Assembly: GCA_030427245.1 (NCBI GenBank)
Contig: JAUHXA010000063.1
Coordinates: 1 to 37,896, forward strand
DNA length: 37,896 nucleotides
Origin: Bacteroidia bacterium
GTDB lineage: Bacteria > Bacteroidota > Bacteroidia > Chitinophagales > UBA2359
Direction of reading: 5' to 3'
Shown: piece after piece, positions 2,498 through 32,662 of the stretch
Layout of the letters: every line of letters begins with the position of its first letter
Numbering within the stretch: position 1 is the stretch's first letter
Made by a program: the position numbers and the translations under genes
The notes under the pieces: generated by a model
What the model was told of the DNA's origin: nothing
The model's database searches: none
The model's input: only the letters and a program-made list of their open reading frames with translations

Positions 2498-4486
2498 CTA
2501 TTTATAGATGCTTTTCAGCACCTCTTCTTTCACATTTACAGGATATTTTTGACGCAGTTCTTCCACCCATTCTTTTTCAAGTTCAGATTGATAATCCGCT
2601 ATAATATACCCTCTTGCTTCCTTCAACTCTTTCACCATTACAGGAAGTTTTTCATTGATTTTGACATAAGTAACGCTGCCATCTTGATTGTTGATTGGTT
2701 CTGAAATTCCTACTTCATAGGGCATATCGTCCACCAATTCATTTTGACCTTTTTCGTATTTCCCATGTTTTACAGATACAATCTTTTCTGCACCTACTTC
2801 ATTGAAGGCCGTTTCCAGTTCACTAAAATTGGAAGATGTTTTCTTCAGCTTTTTATACACTTTCTTGGCAATCGAAGGATCTTTAATCGTCACAATCGTA
2901 GCATCCAATCGAGGTTCCCATTTGTAATTTTCTTTATGAGCTTCATGAAACTTCTTCAAACCCACTGTATCTTCCAATGCCTTGTTCCACACTTTTTGTT
3001 CAGTCAATTCAAATAGCAAGGTTCCGTCTCTAAACTCCTTCAATAACCGCCTAAATTCAGGATATTTTTCACTCAATCGGCTTTCTTCTACTTCTAGCAA
3101 ACTCTGTTCGATGAACATTTTATATAGCAAGTCAATAGTCGCCTCTTGGGTTTTGCTGCGCGCTTTCAATTGATTTTTCTCAATGAAACGAGCAAAGTGT
3201 TGCTGTGTAAATTCTACTTTTCCCTTATTAGGAATTTCCATCGAAAACATAACATCCAATAAATCACCCGCCGTAGAACTCTGCCATCTTCCTTTTACCA
3301 CATCCGCATGTTTGGCCTCTTTAAATGGTGTCAATTTGTTAGGCATAGACTTGAATTTGTAGTCGCTCTGTAACCGCTTCAAAAACACCTCTTTCGACAC
3401 TTTTGAACGGGCATCTCTTTTGATTTTCTTCTTGATATCTGCTTCTTCTTCCTCAAAAGTACCAACTTCTTCTTTATCCAATAATTTGACAATGTGCCAT
3501 CCCAGACGTGTTTGGAAAGGATTCGAGATGTCTCCAATTTCTTCTAAGCCAAACGCTACATCTTCGAATTCGGGCAACATTCGCCCACTACCAAACCAAG
3601 GAAGTTCGCCCCCTTTACTGGAAGTTTGCTTATCCTCCGATTGCAACTTAGCTCTTTGAGCAAAATCACCTCCTGATTTTATTTGATCATACAGTTGATA
3701 AATCTTTTCTTTTGCAGCCTTTTGTTTGTCCGCAGAATCCGTTTTTTTAGATTTAACCAAAATATGAGCCGTCAAAACTCGACCCTTTGCAGGACGAATA
3801 TCGTGAACTTTCACAATATGATACCCATATTTGGTGCGAACGATATCAGAAACCTCTCCCTTGTGAGTCTCATAAGCAGCTGATTCAAAAGGATAAACGG
3901 TTTGAAATGCAGTGATATAGCCCAAAGTTCCCTTATTCTCTTTCACAGAAGGGTCTTGGGAGTGTACCATCGCCATTTTTTCAAAATCTGCGCCGTCCTT
4001 TATTTCCTTGCGTATCTTCGCCAGTTTGTTGTAAGCCAAAGCAGTATCTTGAGGCGAAGCATCAGGATTCACTCTGATCAAAATATGGCTTGTTTTTACT
4101 TCTTTTGTCATACGTGAATAAGCTTCACGCACCAAATTCGCACTCACTTCTTTGTCATACAAATAACTCTGAGCCAATTGCTTGTAATACTGATCCAATT
4201 GAGGCATAATGTGACTAAGTGTATCAATACCTAAATTTTCTGCTTCTTTTACCTTCAATTTAAAATTTGTGTATAAACGCAAATATTCATCTACCGACTC
4301 TTGACTATATTGATTCTTGTCCTGTGAATTGTGTTTTTCATAAACATACACAAACTCAGATTTGGTAACAGATTCATCACCGAATGAAAATAAAATAGGG
4401 TCGTCATCTTGGTTCACATTCAAATTTGCAAAGGATAACTGTGTGGCAACCAACAGGCACCAAAACATTATGCACTTAATATTCAT
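2498..4486 (-). CDS. multidomain parvulin-type peptidyl-prolyl isomerase
   Basis: A 662-residue exported foldase. A short signal peptide (about residues 1-20, ending LSFAN) is followed by a SurA-like helical region. Two well-conserved rotamase domains come next: residues about 131-230 (KTSHILIRV ... GTLGYITAF ... YGYHIVKV) and about 238-338 (TAHILVKSK ... GGELPWFGSGRMLPEFE ... LGWHIVKL). The long C-terminal part (about 390-662) is helical and ends in a degenerate isomerase-like segment. This length and double-parvulin layout are common among Bacteroidota PpiC proteins. It is the first gene of the minus-strand cluster that continues with the lipoprotein and the SurA-like gene. It probably acts in the periplasm on nascent barrel proteins. 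Confidence 0.85.
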   Translation of the reverse strand: MNIKCIMFWCLLVATQLSFANLNVNQDDDPILFSFGDESVTKSEFVYVYEKHNSQDKNQYSQESVDEYLRLYTNFKLKVKEAENLGIDTLSHIMPQLDQYYKQLAQSYLYDKEVSANLVREAYSRMTKEVKTSHILIRVNPDASPQDTALAYNKLAKIRKEIKDGADFEKMAMVHSQDPSVKENKGTLGYITAFQTVYPFESAAYETHKGEVSDIVRTKYGYHIVKVHDIRPAKGRVLTAHILVKSKKTDSADKQKAAKEKIYQLYDQIKSGGDFAQRAKLQSEDKQTSSKGGELPWFGSGRMLPEFEDVAFGLEEIGDISNPFQTRLGWHIVKLLDKEEVGTFEEEEADIKKKIKRDARSKVSKEVFLKRLQSDYKFKSMPNKLTPFKEAKHADVVKGRWQSSTAGDLLDVMFSMEIPNKGKVEFTQQHFARFIEKNQLKARSKTQEATIDLLYKMFIEQSLLEVEESRLSEKYPEFRRLLKEFRDGTLLFELTEQKVWNKALEDTVGLKKFHEAHKENYKWEPRLDATIVTIKDPSIAKKVYKKLKKTSSNFSELETAFNEVGAEKIVSVKHGKYEKGQNELVDDMPYEVGISEPINNQDGSVTYVKINEKLPVMVKELKEARGYIIADYQSELEKEWVEELRQKYPVNVKEEVLKSIYK

Positions 4487-28891: not shown

Positions 28892-30214
28892 ATGCAGATG
28901 CAAAAAGTTCCTTTACCTCAAACAAACAATCCTCGTGTAGTCATTATCGGCGGTGGATTTGGTGGAATCGAATTGGCTAAAAAATTGAAGAAGAAAGCCG
29001 TACAAGTGGTGATGATTGACCGAAACAATTTCCACACCTTTCAGCCCCTACTCTATCAAGTCGCTACGGCAGGCCTCGAGCCAGATTCTATAGCTTATCC
29101 TCTCCGCAAAATCTTCAAACGACAATCCAATTTTCACTTTCGGATGGCAGAAGCACAGCAAATCATTCCCGAAGAAAATACGCTTCTGACGAGTATTGGC
29201 AAAATTCGCTATGATTATTTGGTGATTGCCACGGGTTCGACTACCAATTTTTTTGGATTGAAGGAAATTGAAGAACAAGCGATGCCCATGAAAAGCGTCA
29301 CCGAAGCTCTTGATCTCCGAAGTCTTTTACTTCAAAATTTTGAAAACGCTCTTCTTGCCAAAAGTGTGGAAGAACGAGAAGCTTTGATGAATGTGGTCGT
29401 TGTGGGCGGTGGTCCGACAGGCGTAGAAACGGCGGGTGCTTTGGGCGAATTGAAGGAAAATGTACTACCGCAGGATTACCCCGAATTGGATGTGCGACAA
29501 ATGCAGATTCACCTCATTGAAGCGGCAGGAAATTTACTGAACGGTATGTCGGAAATTTCAGGCAAAAAAGCGGTGGATTTTTTGAAGAAATTTGATGTAC
29601 ATGTATGGCTCAATACGGCGGTCAAACACTATGATGGTCAAATGGTTTACACCAACACCGAGCATCAAATTCCGACCAATACTTTGATTTGGTCTGCGGG
29701 CGTGAAAGGCGCAGTGGTAGAAGGGATTGACGCAAATGTGATTGGTAGAGGTAACCGAATTTTGGTGAATGAATTCAATCAGGTGAAAGGCTACTCCAAT
29801 ATTTTTGCGGTGGGTGATGTGGCTGCAATGCTTACCGAAAAGGCTCCAAAAGGGCATCCGATGGTGGCTCCCGTAGCCATTCAACAAGGTCAGTTATTGG
29901 CAAAAAACATAGTCTGTTTGCTGCAAAATAAACCTCTAAAAGCTTTTCAATACAAGGACAAAGGGTCTATGGCTACGGTTGGACGCAATCGGGCAGTTGT
30001 AGAAGTGGGCAAATTCAAAACACAGGGCTTTTTTGCTTGGTATATGTGGATGGCAGTGCATTTGATGTCTTTGGTGGGTTTCCGCAATAAGTTGGTTACA
30101 CTGGTCAATTGGATGTGGAGTTACTTCAATTATGACAAAGGGATTCGGTTGATTATTAGACCTTTCAAGCGAAAGAAAACGGAAGAGAAGGAAGTTGTCA
30201 TGGATGAGGTTTAA
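28892..30214 (+). CDS. type II NADH dehydrogenase-like FAD oxidoreductase
   Basis: A 440-residue flavoprotein of the NDH-2 group, which passes electrons from NADH to quinone without pumping protons. The FAD Rossmann motif IIGGGFGG (about 18-25) and the NAD motif VVGGGPTGVETAGAL (about 170-184) are both present, as is the FAD-closing AVGD (306-309). The conserved quinone-side segment VAPVAIQQGQLLAKNI (about 325-340) is visible. A C-terminal hydrophobic amphipathic stretch (about 373-405, AWYMWMAVHLMSLVGFRNKL) should bind the membrane. The ATG at 28892 is used; a second at 28898 is equally possible. The gene is divergent from trmD. Confidence 0.9.
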   Translation: MQMQKVPLPQTNNPRVVIIGGGFGGIELAKKLKKKAVQVVMIDRNNFHTFQPLLYQVATAGLEPDSIAYPLRKIFKRQSNFHFRMAEAQQIIPEENTLLTSIGKIRYDYLVIATGSTTNFFGLKEIEEQAMPMKSVTEALDLRSLLLQNFENALLAKSVEEREALMNVVVVGGGPTGVETAGALGELKENVLPQDYPELDVRQMQIHLIEAAGNLLNGMSEISGKKAVDFLKKFDVHVWLNTAVKHYDGQMVYTNTEHQIPTNTLIWSAGVKGAVVEGIDANVIGRGNRILVNEFNQVKGYSNIFAVGDVAAMLTEKAPKGHPMVAPVAIQQGQLLAKNIVCLLQNKPLKAFQYKDKGSMATVGRNRAVVEVGKFKTQGFFAWYMWMAVHLMSLVGFRNKLVTLVNWMWSYFNYDKGIRLIIRPFKRKKTEEKEVVMDEV

Positions 30215-30250
30215 TTGAAGAAAAGAACGGAAGCTTTTACTCATTAGACT

Positions 30251-30384
30251 CATACTACATGCACATTTTTAATTCCACCACAAAAGGCACAAAGAAAATA
30301 AAAATAAAGAACTGAAATTCAATAACCTCTTTTATGCCCTTTTGCTACTTTTGTGGTTCAAAAATTATTTTTTACAGTAGTATG
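30251..30384 (+). mobile_element. MITE-like element, copy 1
   Basis: This 134-bp element runs from a degenerate left end (CATACTACATGCACATT) to ACAGTAGTATG. The reverse complement of the copy at 31331-31463 aligns over its full length at about 90% identity by eye. It has no coding capacity. No clear target-site duplication is seen. It stands between the NADH dehydrogenase gene and the methyltransferase gene, in inverted orientation to copy 2. Confidence 0.8.
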
Positions 30385-30511
30385 ATTAGGCTTCACTTTG
30401 CTTGGAAATGTAAAGACAGAGGGATGGAGATGGAGAGGTTTTGACACAAGATTTATACTAACAACAATTCAAACTCCCGAATCTCGCTTCTCCCCTCTCT
30501 CCTCTAAAGTA
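30385..30511. other. spacer between MITE copy 1 and the methyltransferase stop
   Basis: A purine-rich run near 30417-30437 (GAGGGATGGAGATGGAGAGG) and a pyrimidine-rich run near 30485-30504 (CGCTTCTCCCCTCTCTCCTC) are partly complementary and could form a weak hairpin at the end of the minus-strand transcript. Nothing else is recognisable. Confidence 0.35.
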
Positions 30512-31285
30512 TTACCTCTTCCTTCCTATCCAAATATATTCTCTCGCCAAACGATAACGTTCTACCAAATCCTTGTCCATATCCAAAATAAACCTATCCA
30601 AATCCACTTCAAAACCCGCTTTTTCCAAACGTGCCTTTTTGTCCATGCCATAGATACGAACATGGTCGGCTTGGTGAAATAAGCGAATACGTTCTTGTGG
30701 GTCGGTAATCGTTAGGTCTTCCCTCGTTTGATATTCCTCATTCGGCAACATCGGTGTCTCTAATACTGCCCAACCTCCTGGCTTCAATACTCGATACAAT
30801 TCACTCATTGCTTTCGCATCATCAGGGATATGCTCTAACACATGATTGCAGATAATGACATCAAAGCTGTTGTCACTGAAGGTGATGTTGGTGATGTCCA
30901 TTTTGACCATTGCAGTCGGCATGTCTAAATCTGCACTGATATAGTCAATATTAGGAGCGTTTTTCAGCCATTTCTGAAACTGATGTTCGGGTGCAAAGTG
31001 CAAGACTTTCAGCTTTGCAGTAGGCAGCGTGGTTTTTTGGTGGAAAAACAACCACAAACCCCGATGCCGTTCCAAAGACAAGCACCAACGACACAAGATA
31101 TTCTCTCTCGTTTTTTGTCCATAACTCGCAAAAGAACTAAAGGTAGATTTGCAGCAAGGACATTCCACTTGATTGCCTCTATACAAAGGAATTGTAGCAC
31201 GCATTGCATACAAGCCCGCTTCTCGCAAGTATTTCTTGGGAATGATTTTTTCTGCCGTTAGCTTTAGTTGGTGTGTTGAAAACAT
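30512..31285 (-). CDS. class I SAM-dependent methyltransferase with a zinc-ribbon-like N-terminus
   Basis: A 257-residue protein. An N-terminal four-cysteine knuckle (CPCC at 42-45 and CRWC at 65-68) probably binds zinc. A type 11 methyltransferase fold follows: motif I region KLKVLHFAPEHQF (91-103), the acidic loop YISADLD (115-121), FDVIICNHVLEHIPD (141-155), and LYRVLKPGGWAVLETP (163-178). The substrate is unknown; relatives sit in sugar or cell-surface gene sets. The start is set at MFSTHQLK (31285). The frame extends 60 bp upstream, and those extra Met codons lie in or beside a MITE terminal repeat, so they are less likely. Two inverted MITE-like copies flank the gene. Confidence 0.82.
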   Translation of the reverse strand: MFSTHQLKLTAEKIIPKKYLREAGLYAMRATIPLYRGNQVECPCCKSTFSSFASYGQKTRENILCRWCLSLERHRGLWLFFHQKTTLPTAKLKVLHFAPEHQFQKWLKNAPNIDYISADLDMPTAMVKMDITNITFSDNSFDVIICNHVLEHIPDDAKAMSELYRVLKPGGWAVLETPMLPNEEYQTREDLTITDPQERIRLFHQADHVRIYGMDKKARLEKAGFEVDLDRFILDMDKDLVERYRLAREYIWIGRKR

Positions 31286-31330
31286 CTGGATTTGTGTTTG
31301 TGTGTTTGAGTTGATAATTGTATTTGGGTG

Positions 31331-31463
31331 CATACTACTGTACAAAATGATTTTTGAACCACAAAAGTATCAAAAGGGCACAAAAGAGATAGATGAATTT
31401 CAGTTCTTTACTTTTGTTTTCTTTGTGCCTTTTGTGGTTGGATTAAAAATGTACAGTAGTATG
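31331..31463 (-). mobile_element. MITE-like element, copy 2, with perfect 14-bp terminal inverted repeats
   Basis: This 133-bp element has perfect ends, CATACTACTGTACA (31331-31344) and TGTACAGTAGTATG (31450-31463). The arms continue as an imperfect palindrome (AACCACAAAAG ... CTTTTGTGGTT). No open frame is present. It is the better-preserved copy and lies upstream of the methyltransferase start. Such short palindromic elements are moved by transposases encoded elsewhere; none is in this window. Confidence 0.85.
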
Positions 31464-31487
31464 ATTTGTGTCTTTGTGTGTTTGAGA

Positions 31488-31617
31488 GTTTTTTTACAGT
31501 GATTCTTCCGAAACCCTAAATTCTTGTTGAGTGTTTGTGTTTGAGTTGATAATTGGGTGTAAGTGTTTATGTGTTTTTATAGTGAGTCCTCCGAAACCTC
31601 AAATTCTTGTTGGGTCC
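31488..31617. repeat. two diverged direct repeats of ~45 bp downstream of rlmN
   Basis: TTTACAGTGATTCTTCCGAA + ACCCTAAATTCTTGTTGAG (about 31490-31532) recurs as TTTATAGTGAGTCCTCCGAA + ACCTCAAATTCTTGTTGGG (about 31575-31615), offset by about 85 bp. The phrase GTTTGAGTTGATAATTG between them also occurs before MITE copy 2. The repeats look like a local duplication. Their function is unknown. Confidence 0.65.
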
Positions 31618-31624
31618 ACCGTTT

Positions 31625-32662
31625 TCACTTATTCGCCAATTGTCCACAAGCCGCATCAATATCCTTCCCTCGACTTCGGCGCAAAGTAGCGGTGATGCCT
31701 TGTGACTCTACATAGTTTTGAAATTTTTCCAATCGGTCTTCTGTCGTTTTGAAGAAGTTCAGCCCTGCAACGGTATTGTATTCGATGATATTCACCTTTG
31801 AAGGAATGATTTTGCAGAATTTCACCAATTCTTTGGCATCTTCAATGCTGTCATTGAAAGAATTGAAGGCTATGTATTCATAAGTCACTTGTCGCCCCAA
31901 TTTTTCGTAGTAATACCGCAAAGCATCTGCCAAGACCTCCAATGAATTGCTTTCATTGATAGCCATGATTTCGTTGCGTTTTTGGTCGTTGGCAGCGTGA
32001 AGCGAAAGAGCCAAATTGAATTTGGTATCGTCGTCTGCCAATTTTCGAATCATTTTGGAGATGCCTGCTGTTGAGACCGTTATGCGTTTGGGAGACATAT
32101 TGAGACCATCGGGTGCGGTGATGCGCTCAGTGCTTCTCACCACTTCTTTGTAGTTGAGTAGCGGCTCGCCCATGCCCATATAGACAATGTTTGTCAAAGG
32201 TTGGTTGTAGCGCTGTTCTGCCTCTCGCTTGATGAACACGACTTGATCAAATATTTCGTCGGCAGTAAGATTGCGTTTGCGATCCAACAATCCCGTAGCA
32301 CAAAAACTACACGCCAAACTGCAACCGACTTGCGAGGATACGCAGGCGGTCATACGTGACAAATCAGGTGAGGGAATCAACACACCTTCAATGATATGTC
32401 CTTCATGTAGTTGAAAGCCAAATTTTACCGTGCCATCCTTACTTACCTGTTTTTTGGCAATTTGGACAGGAAGAATCTCATAACTTTCCTTGATTTGGTT
32501 GAGCAATTTTTTGGGAATGTTCAACATTTCGTCAAAACTATGAGCCGTTTTTTGCCAAATCCAATGATAAATTTGTTTGGCCCTGAAAGGTTTATCCCCC
32601 ATTTCTACAACTACTTTTTGCAGTTGTTCGAGAGTGAGGGTGCGGATGTTTTTTTTGCTCAT
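31625..32662 (-). CDS. rlmN: dual-specificity RNA methyltransferase (23S rRNA A2503 / tRNA A37)
   Basis: A 345-residue radical-SAM enzyme that methylates C2 of adenosine in 23S rRNA and some tRNAs. The iron-sulfur cysteines are in CSLACSFC (Cys114, Cys118, Cys121), and the methyl-carrying Cys is in AACGQL near the C-terminus (Cys339). Also present are TYEYIAFNSFNDS and the motif YMGMGEPLLNYK. The length matches the family. RlmN and Cfr differ in detail, but the sequence reads as RlmN, not the resistance enzyme Cfr. A TAATTTTG box at 32704-32697 is a probable -7 element. The gene is divergent from yicC. Confidence 0.96.
   Translation of the reverse strand: MSKKNIRTLTLEQLQKVVVEMGDKPFRAKQIYHWIWQKTAHSFDEMLNIPKKLLNQIKESYEILPVQIAKKQVSKDGTVKFGFQLHEGHIIEGVLIPSPDLSRMTACVSSQVGCSLACSFCATGLLDRKRNLTADEIFDQVVFIKREAEQRYNQPLTNIVYMGMGEPLLNYKEVVRSTERITAPDGLNMSPKRITVSTAGISKMIRKLADDDTKFNLALSLHAANDQKRNEIMAINESNSLEVLADALRYYYEKLGRQVTYEYIAFNSFNDSIEDAKELVKFCKIIPSKVNIIEYNTVAGLNFFKTTEDRLEKFQNYVESQGITATLRRSRGKDIDAACGQLANK

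Follow-up and report, generated by a model that had tools for sequence, protein, structure and literature searches.

Does a gene that lies between two inverted copies of a short repeat move with them, or do the copies simply lie beside it? The question is raised by the window analysed here, a stretch of 37,896 nucleotides that forms contig 164 of a Bacteroidia genome assembled as 7,581,472 bases in 187 contigs. A SAM-dependent methyltransferase gene (30512-31345, minus strand; profile match to Methyltransf_11) is the single gene between copy 1 of the repeat (30251-30384, minus strand, 134 bp) and copy 2 (31331-31463, plus strand, 133 bp). A first-pass annotation had described two inverted elements of 133-134 bp, about 90% alike, the second with perfect 14-bp terminal inverted repeats, and both descriptions are borne out. 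The arms of the pair (30260-30384 and 31331-31455) are 125 nt long, inverted and 90% complementary, a similarity search gave 89% copy-to-copy identity over 133 query letters, and copy 2 carries the perfect inverted end CATACTACTGTACA at 31331-31344 and 31450-31463. The right end of copy 1 (30371-30384) has one mismatch to this 14-bp end; its left end, CATACTACATGCACA, is damaged and contains an extra base. With up to two mismatches, the end occurs at three places in the window versus 0.08 expected. The window's list of open reading frames holds none of 60 or more amino acids inside either copy, overlapping frames reaching past the element, and an Rfam search of the window at the gathering threshold gave no match. 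We consider it very likely that one non-autonomous element, a MITE of about 133 bp on which an IS4-family transposase acts in trans, inserted here twice, separately and not at the same time, with the methyltransferase as a bystander.

Searching the genome for further copies of the ends, as the first-pass annotation had proposed, was productive. CATACTACTGTACA with at most one mismatch was found at 148 places, compared with 2 for a reversed-pattern control, and the core AACCACAAAAGTATCAAAAG with at most two mismatches at 110 places, compared with 0 in the control; a catalogue built from the listed end and core matches comprises at least 106 element places. Among the matches listed, at least 99 distinct ones are 80% or more like the consensus, which was typed by hand, weaker matches (the self-complement and most end-less cores) having been dropped beforehand. 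Seventy-seven of the 99 are complete; the 22 incomplete ones include two end-less cores and three truncated by contig ends, which could make one broken copy count as two. A perfect target duplication (TSD) of 9 bp borders 43 of the 77 complete copies, with 13 more showing one mismatch and 3 showing two (56 with at most one and 59 with at most two, cumulatively); 18 have three or more. When exact border repeats of 4-13 bp were tested, all 43 fell at 9 bp and every other length gave 0-1. The perfect duplications begin with A in 32 and end with T in 22 of the 43 cases. Insertions avoid genes and lie mostly outside long open frames: with the element and one repeat removed, 20 of the 60 sites that had enough flank (out of 77) were within an open frame of 100 codons or more, compared with 92% of 600 control positions taken from these loci. 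The elements are therefore short, multi-copy, bounded by inverted ends and a constant 9-bp TSD, and carry no transposase of their own, as expected of MITEs; an autonomous element with matching ends was seen in other genomes (loci L329 and L308) and not in this one. Their status as mobile elements follows from the TSDs, and the assignment of a parent from those other genomes. The MITE-like nature and dependence on an outside transposase suggested earlier are both well supported by these copies, their TSDs and the occurrence elsewhere of an insertion sequence with near-identical ends.

The family moved recently: ten copies at different sites have one and the same sequence, namely copy 2 and nine others among those listed, and of these nine, eight have a perfect TSD and one a TSD with one mismatch. 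Judged by divergence from the consensus (9.0% for copy 1, 2.3% for copy 2), copy 1 is the older and copy 2 is young, and the identity of copy 2 with nine others beside a 9%-diverged copy 1 argues that the two arrived separately. A whole-element search of 60 related genomes, the own genome included, gave just four matches outside the own genome, each of 26-37 nt. The core hairpin was also found without ends, as neighbouring units that are mostly 74-78% alike, on contigs 48, 83 and 145 of the own genome (loci L127, L139 and L152); in L127 and L139 the units are spaced 98 bp apart in tandem arrays, with five units in L139.

These end-less 98-bp arrays, together with the position of the copies mostly outside long open frames and the folding of copy 2, which on either strand is much stronger than that of shuffled sequences (z -7.1 and -8.6), would suit a structural or regulatory repeat, such as a REP/ERIC-like hairpin or a transcription terminator, that is kept for its function and is not mobile. 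We regard this as very unlikely, since 43 of the 77 complete copies have 9-bp TSDs, which require insertion; nor was a terminator-like site found in 30150-31650 by a scan that allows loops of 3-8 and would miss a long hairpin. Whether the pair moved or flipped as a unit can be read from its flanks. Copy 2 lies between ATTTGGGTG (31322-31330) and ATTTGTGTC (31464-31472), which match at 7/9 letters (1.1% by chance). Copy 1 lies between the TSD-like flanks ATTAGACT (30243-30250, read from the sequence) and ATTAGGCTT (30385-30393), which agree by eye at 7/8 letters if one base of a 9-bp duplication has been lost and match at 3/9 in a gap-free script. A composite transposon would have a single target duplication outside the pair and terminal elements supplying the transposase; the outer flanks match at 4/9, a level that random flanks with equal freedom reach 58% of the time, and neither copy has an open frame of its own. 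The first-pass annotation had proposed a cassette resembling such a unit, about 1.2 kb long with the inverted copies as its ends and the methyltransferase as cargo of an outside transposase. Its appeal lies in the geometry, in an unexplained 6/9 match (6.5% by chance) between the inner flanks, right of copy 1 and left of copy 2, and in the lack of a kept methyltransferase neighbourhood across related loci, as would fit a mobile gene. The proposal does not survive the chance-level outer flanks, set against the 7/9 of copy 2's own, or the unequal ages of the copies. The gene is present in full just once in the own genome, where the other two matches span 55 and 46 residues, and nine genomes from six other genera of the family carry it at 66-70% identity. 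The spacing of the pair is in line with chance as well. Among 98 listed places (the listed catalogue minus eight end-less core places), three close pairs of at most 1100 bp were observed versus 1.36 expected under uniform placement (P 0.15) and 1.03 under placement solely in intergenic gaps (P 0.083), the gap model being a simple grid and not the real gene map; one was inverted, versus 0.67 expected. On 102 listed places the expectations were 1.46 (P 0.18) and 1.13 (P 0.097), respectively. We accordingly give a cargo role for the methyltransferase extremely little credence.

The missing neighbourhood is not peculiar to the methyltransferase. An ndh-like oxidoreductase gene, as we take it to be from its sequence (28892-30214, plus strand), faces copy 1 with its 3' end, and a presumed rlmN-like enzyme, also named from its sequence (31625-32662, minus strand), is the neighbour on the other side, with matches in 58 of the 60 genomes searched (own included). 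In none of 28 related loci, drawn from genera other than the own genus, did the methyltransferase lie within 1.5 kb of either the ndh-like or the rlmN-like gene (some loci being shortened by contig ends), and shared neighbours were restricted to small groups of the loci examined. The order of the window's genes is, however, lost around rlmN too, none of six other window proteins lying within 1.5 kb of it in 23 of 23 other loci, so that synteny has been lost generally. The methyltransferase is a bystander and not mobile cargo. Its frame runs for 277 codons from a first TTG that sits within the end of copy 2. Alignments with the closest homologues begin at about residue 8-22, which makes the ATG at 31285 the probable true start and would place copy 2 about 45 bp upstream. 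This position, with two inverted copies 90% alike, could suggest a segment that recombination between the copies flips, switching expression of the gene. Such inversion, also raised in the earlier annotation, has left no trace: the flank pairings that it predicts match at 4/9 and 2/9, as opposed to 7/9 for copy 2 as it stands, and 133 bp at 90% identity is short for homologous recombination. We consider it most improbable. Imperfect direct repeats surround copy 2 upstream of the methyltransferase (31292-31615), with TTGTGTTTGTGTGTTTGAGTTGATAATTG present three times and a 45-nt unit twice.

If two independent MITE insertions made the pair, an IS4-family DDE transposase would recognise the end CAYACTACTGKACATTTT, a longer, 18-bp version of the 14-bp end; it would cut and paste the MITE in trans, as the chemistry of the IS4 family suggests, and its 9-bp staggered cut would produce the 9-bp TSD. 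Within the order, 17 of 396 genomes, the own one among them, contain CAYACTACTGKACATTTT, compared with 2 of 396 for a control, and 15 of the 17 belong to family f17. The exact 14-letter ends gave 10 matches in 8 other genomes among the 396; those at L107, L108, L110 and L111 look by eye like chance. At L329, in genome G339, two ends, one 18/18 and the other 16/18 to CAYACTACTGKACATTTT, are 1190 bp apart and bordered on both sides by ACGGACTCT, a 9-bp TSD. They enclose one open frame without frameshift, encoding a 372-aa transposase that matches PF01609 at 5e-13 and scores 112.2 bits against NF033591 (NCBIfam IS4_2, IS4 family), below the curated cut-off of 152. The YREK signature, Y-(2)-R-(3)-E-(6)-K, reads YVKRWRIECLFFHLK in L329 and YAKRWKIECLFRHLK in L308. 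The L329 insertion sequence thus has the DDE domain with YREK, a TSD near the 10 bp of the IS4 family and an unbroken frame while falling short of the curated model, and we call it IS4-like by signature, since YREK, TSD and PF01609 carry the assignment. Its ends (CATACTACTGG, of the form CA------T), its length of 1190 bp (range 1150-1750) and its 9-bp duplication (range 8-10) suggest IS4Sa as the best fitting subgroup. A second element, L308 in G181, is 1193 bp long with both ends 18/18, its transposase split over two frames and no clear 9-bp TSD. Transposase fragments with such ends are present in G229, and less alike ones in a Phaeodactylibacter genome. MITE and insertion sequence share just the 14-18-bp ends and no longer internal stretch.

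The search for a transposase with matching ends, likewise proposed in the first-pass annotation, therefore succeeded in a related genome and failed in the own one. There, the G181 protein found no match, and three PF01609 matches were recovered, none enclosed by the ends; a small transposase profile gave nothing at E 1, with no genome of known match to serve as its positive control. The PF01609 transposases of five genomes, 21 loci, likewise included none inside an inward-facing pair of ends. With the G181 protein as query, 7 of 19 genomes had a match and 12 had none, which limits the claim that one insertion sequence drives all the MITEs. We infer that the L329 transposase or a close relative may have moved the copies in the own genome, and that the enzyme has been lost, is too divergent to see or falls in an assembly gap. 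Its absence is in tension with the recent movement suggested by ten identical copies. Equally, the TSD of copy 2 matches at just 7/9 although its sequence is identical to fresh copies, and that of copy 1 aligns solely with one deletion. A 577-aa transposase on contig 146 of the own genome (L154), presumably IS1634-like, lies between two MITE relics and was rejected as a partner, because the relics belong to a direct duplication around another insertion sequence: exact 397-bp direct repeats (1561-1957 and 3957-4353) flank the transposase, and the duplicated stretch contains a MITE relic, giving an apparent MITE pair. Long direct repeats are a known feature of IS1634 and IS1549.

Elements with the same ends are present in related genomes under other interiors. 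When a genome collection was scanned for exact ends in pairs, one contig was recovered; it belongs to a Phaeodactylibacter MAG (Saprospirales) and has a different interior and AGTTTTGTG on both sides. Ends with at most one mismatch numbered 27 in the Phaeodactylibacter genome, 30 in G315, 12 in G199, 10 in G385 and 2 in G020, compared with 0-1 in the control for each genome; G020 is thus no evidence. The sequence between the ends was compared for 50 elements of 11 genomes, a subset of those found. These interiors fell into 14 clusters, between which BLAST gave no link at E 1e-5 and 40 nt; three of the clusters are in Phaeodactylibacter and two each in G315, G385 and G285. The likeness of the ends arises partly from their use as search key, and the clusters need not be wholly unrelated, since some have short motifs in common by eye, such as CCACNAAG in the own genome (G000), G385 and Phaeodactylibacter. 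A perfect 9-bp TSD was found in 27 of 38 non-own elements in the listed set, which leaves out five pairs at L169, L179, L180, L185 and L187 (two perfect) and two in L257 and L269 (poor). Folding reached a z of -2 or below in 31 of 39 interiors versus 2 of 38 nearby controls, members of one cluster not being independent; in G199, 5 of 6 do not fold at this level. The motifs GTGTAAA and CACAGAG recur by eye in inverted order inside interiors. Two 49-bp elements (L248, 2953-3001; L250, 3024-3072) are hardly more than their two ends, and both have a perfect 9-bp TSD, which suggests that the ends may nearly suffice for movement. At the other extreme, L314 966-1357 (392 bp) and L311 1616-2037 (422 bp) have the same kind of ends and, by eye, long inverted interiors. 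No transposase remnant was detected in ten elements of 184-422 bp (best E 0.14). Five matches to CATACTACTGGACATTTT in viral contigs were examined and judged not to be MITEs, all lying in nearly one 40-letter stretch with no partner end at up to two mismatches.

The elements of the wider family form a new set of IS4-type MITEs whose interiors are exchangeable; our literature search found no report of the end sequences, of CCACGGAG-type strings or of a link between IS4Sa and a MITE. From the 14 clusters under near-identical ends, the 31 of 39 folding interiors and the end-less core arrays, we venture a speculative model, with the odds against it: one IS4-type end pair would repeatedly gain new, mostly self-complementary interiors, the hairpin helping to bring the ends together, and the interiors would perhaps be captured from interspersed palindromic repeats already in the host. 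Similar interspersed repeats occur in other bacteria. For the locus itself, a story of a cargo transposon gives way to a tested and more ordinary one, in which two MITEs inserted independently next to a gene that is a bystander. About 100 unlabelled repeats of the genome can now be linked, by their ends and target duplications, with a family of transposases. The series in sister genomes, from 49 to 422 bp with near-identical ends and different interiors, asks what an IS4-type transposase needs besides ends and offers a way into the origin of MITE interiors.

Among known systems, IS4Sa is characterised in the family description of PMC2266710 by a size of 1150-1750, ends of the form CA------T, a direct repeat of 8-10 and YREK as the IS4 signature. 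The L329 element resembles it, on that description, in its 1190 bp, CAYACTACT ends, YREK, 9-bp TSD and PF01609 DDE domain (PMC2266710); it departs from IS4Sa/IS4_2 in scoring 112 versus the cut-off of 152, being assigned by signature and not by tree, and the L308 copy departs further, as its transposase is split over two frames and it lacks a clear TSD. The Porphyromonas gingivalis MITEs BrickBuilt, MITE239, MITE464/PgRS and MITE700, as portrayed in PMC4596501, are similar at their ends but not elsewhere, and two of them contain internal repeats, of 23 and 41 nt. Both sets are Bacteroidota MITEs with ends resembling those of insertion sequences (PMC4596501). In that paper, however, the P. gingivalis ends are compared with IS5-family elements and BrickBuilt TSDs are variable in length or absent, whereas here the ends are of IS4-family type, the TSD is a constant 9 bp and, unlike theirs, the interiors are mostly self-complementary (PMC4596501). 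In Cardinium, a MITE belongs to an IS982-family element whose intact parental copies reside in the same genome, according to PMC9769881; our family differs in its transposase family and in the location of the parent, and shares with the Cardinium MITE a lineage-specific spread in which the MITE is likely kept by its parental insertion sequence (PMC9769881).
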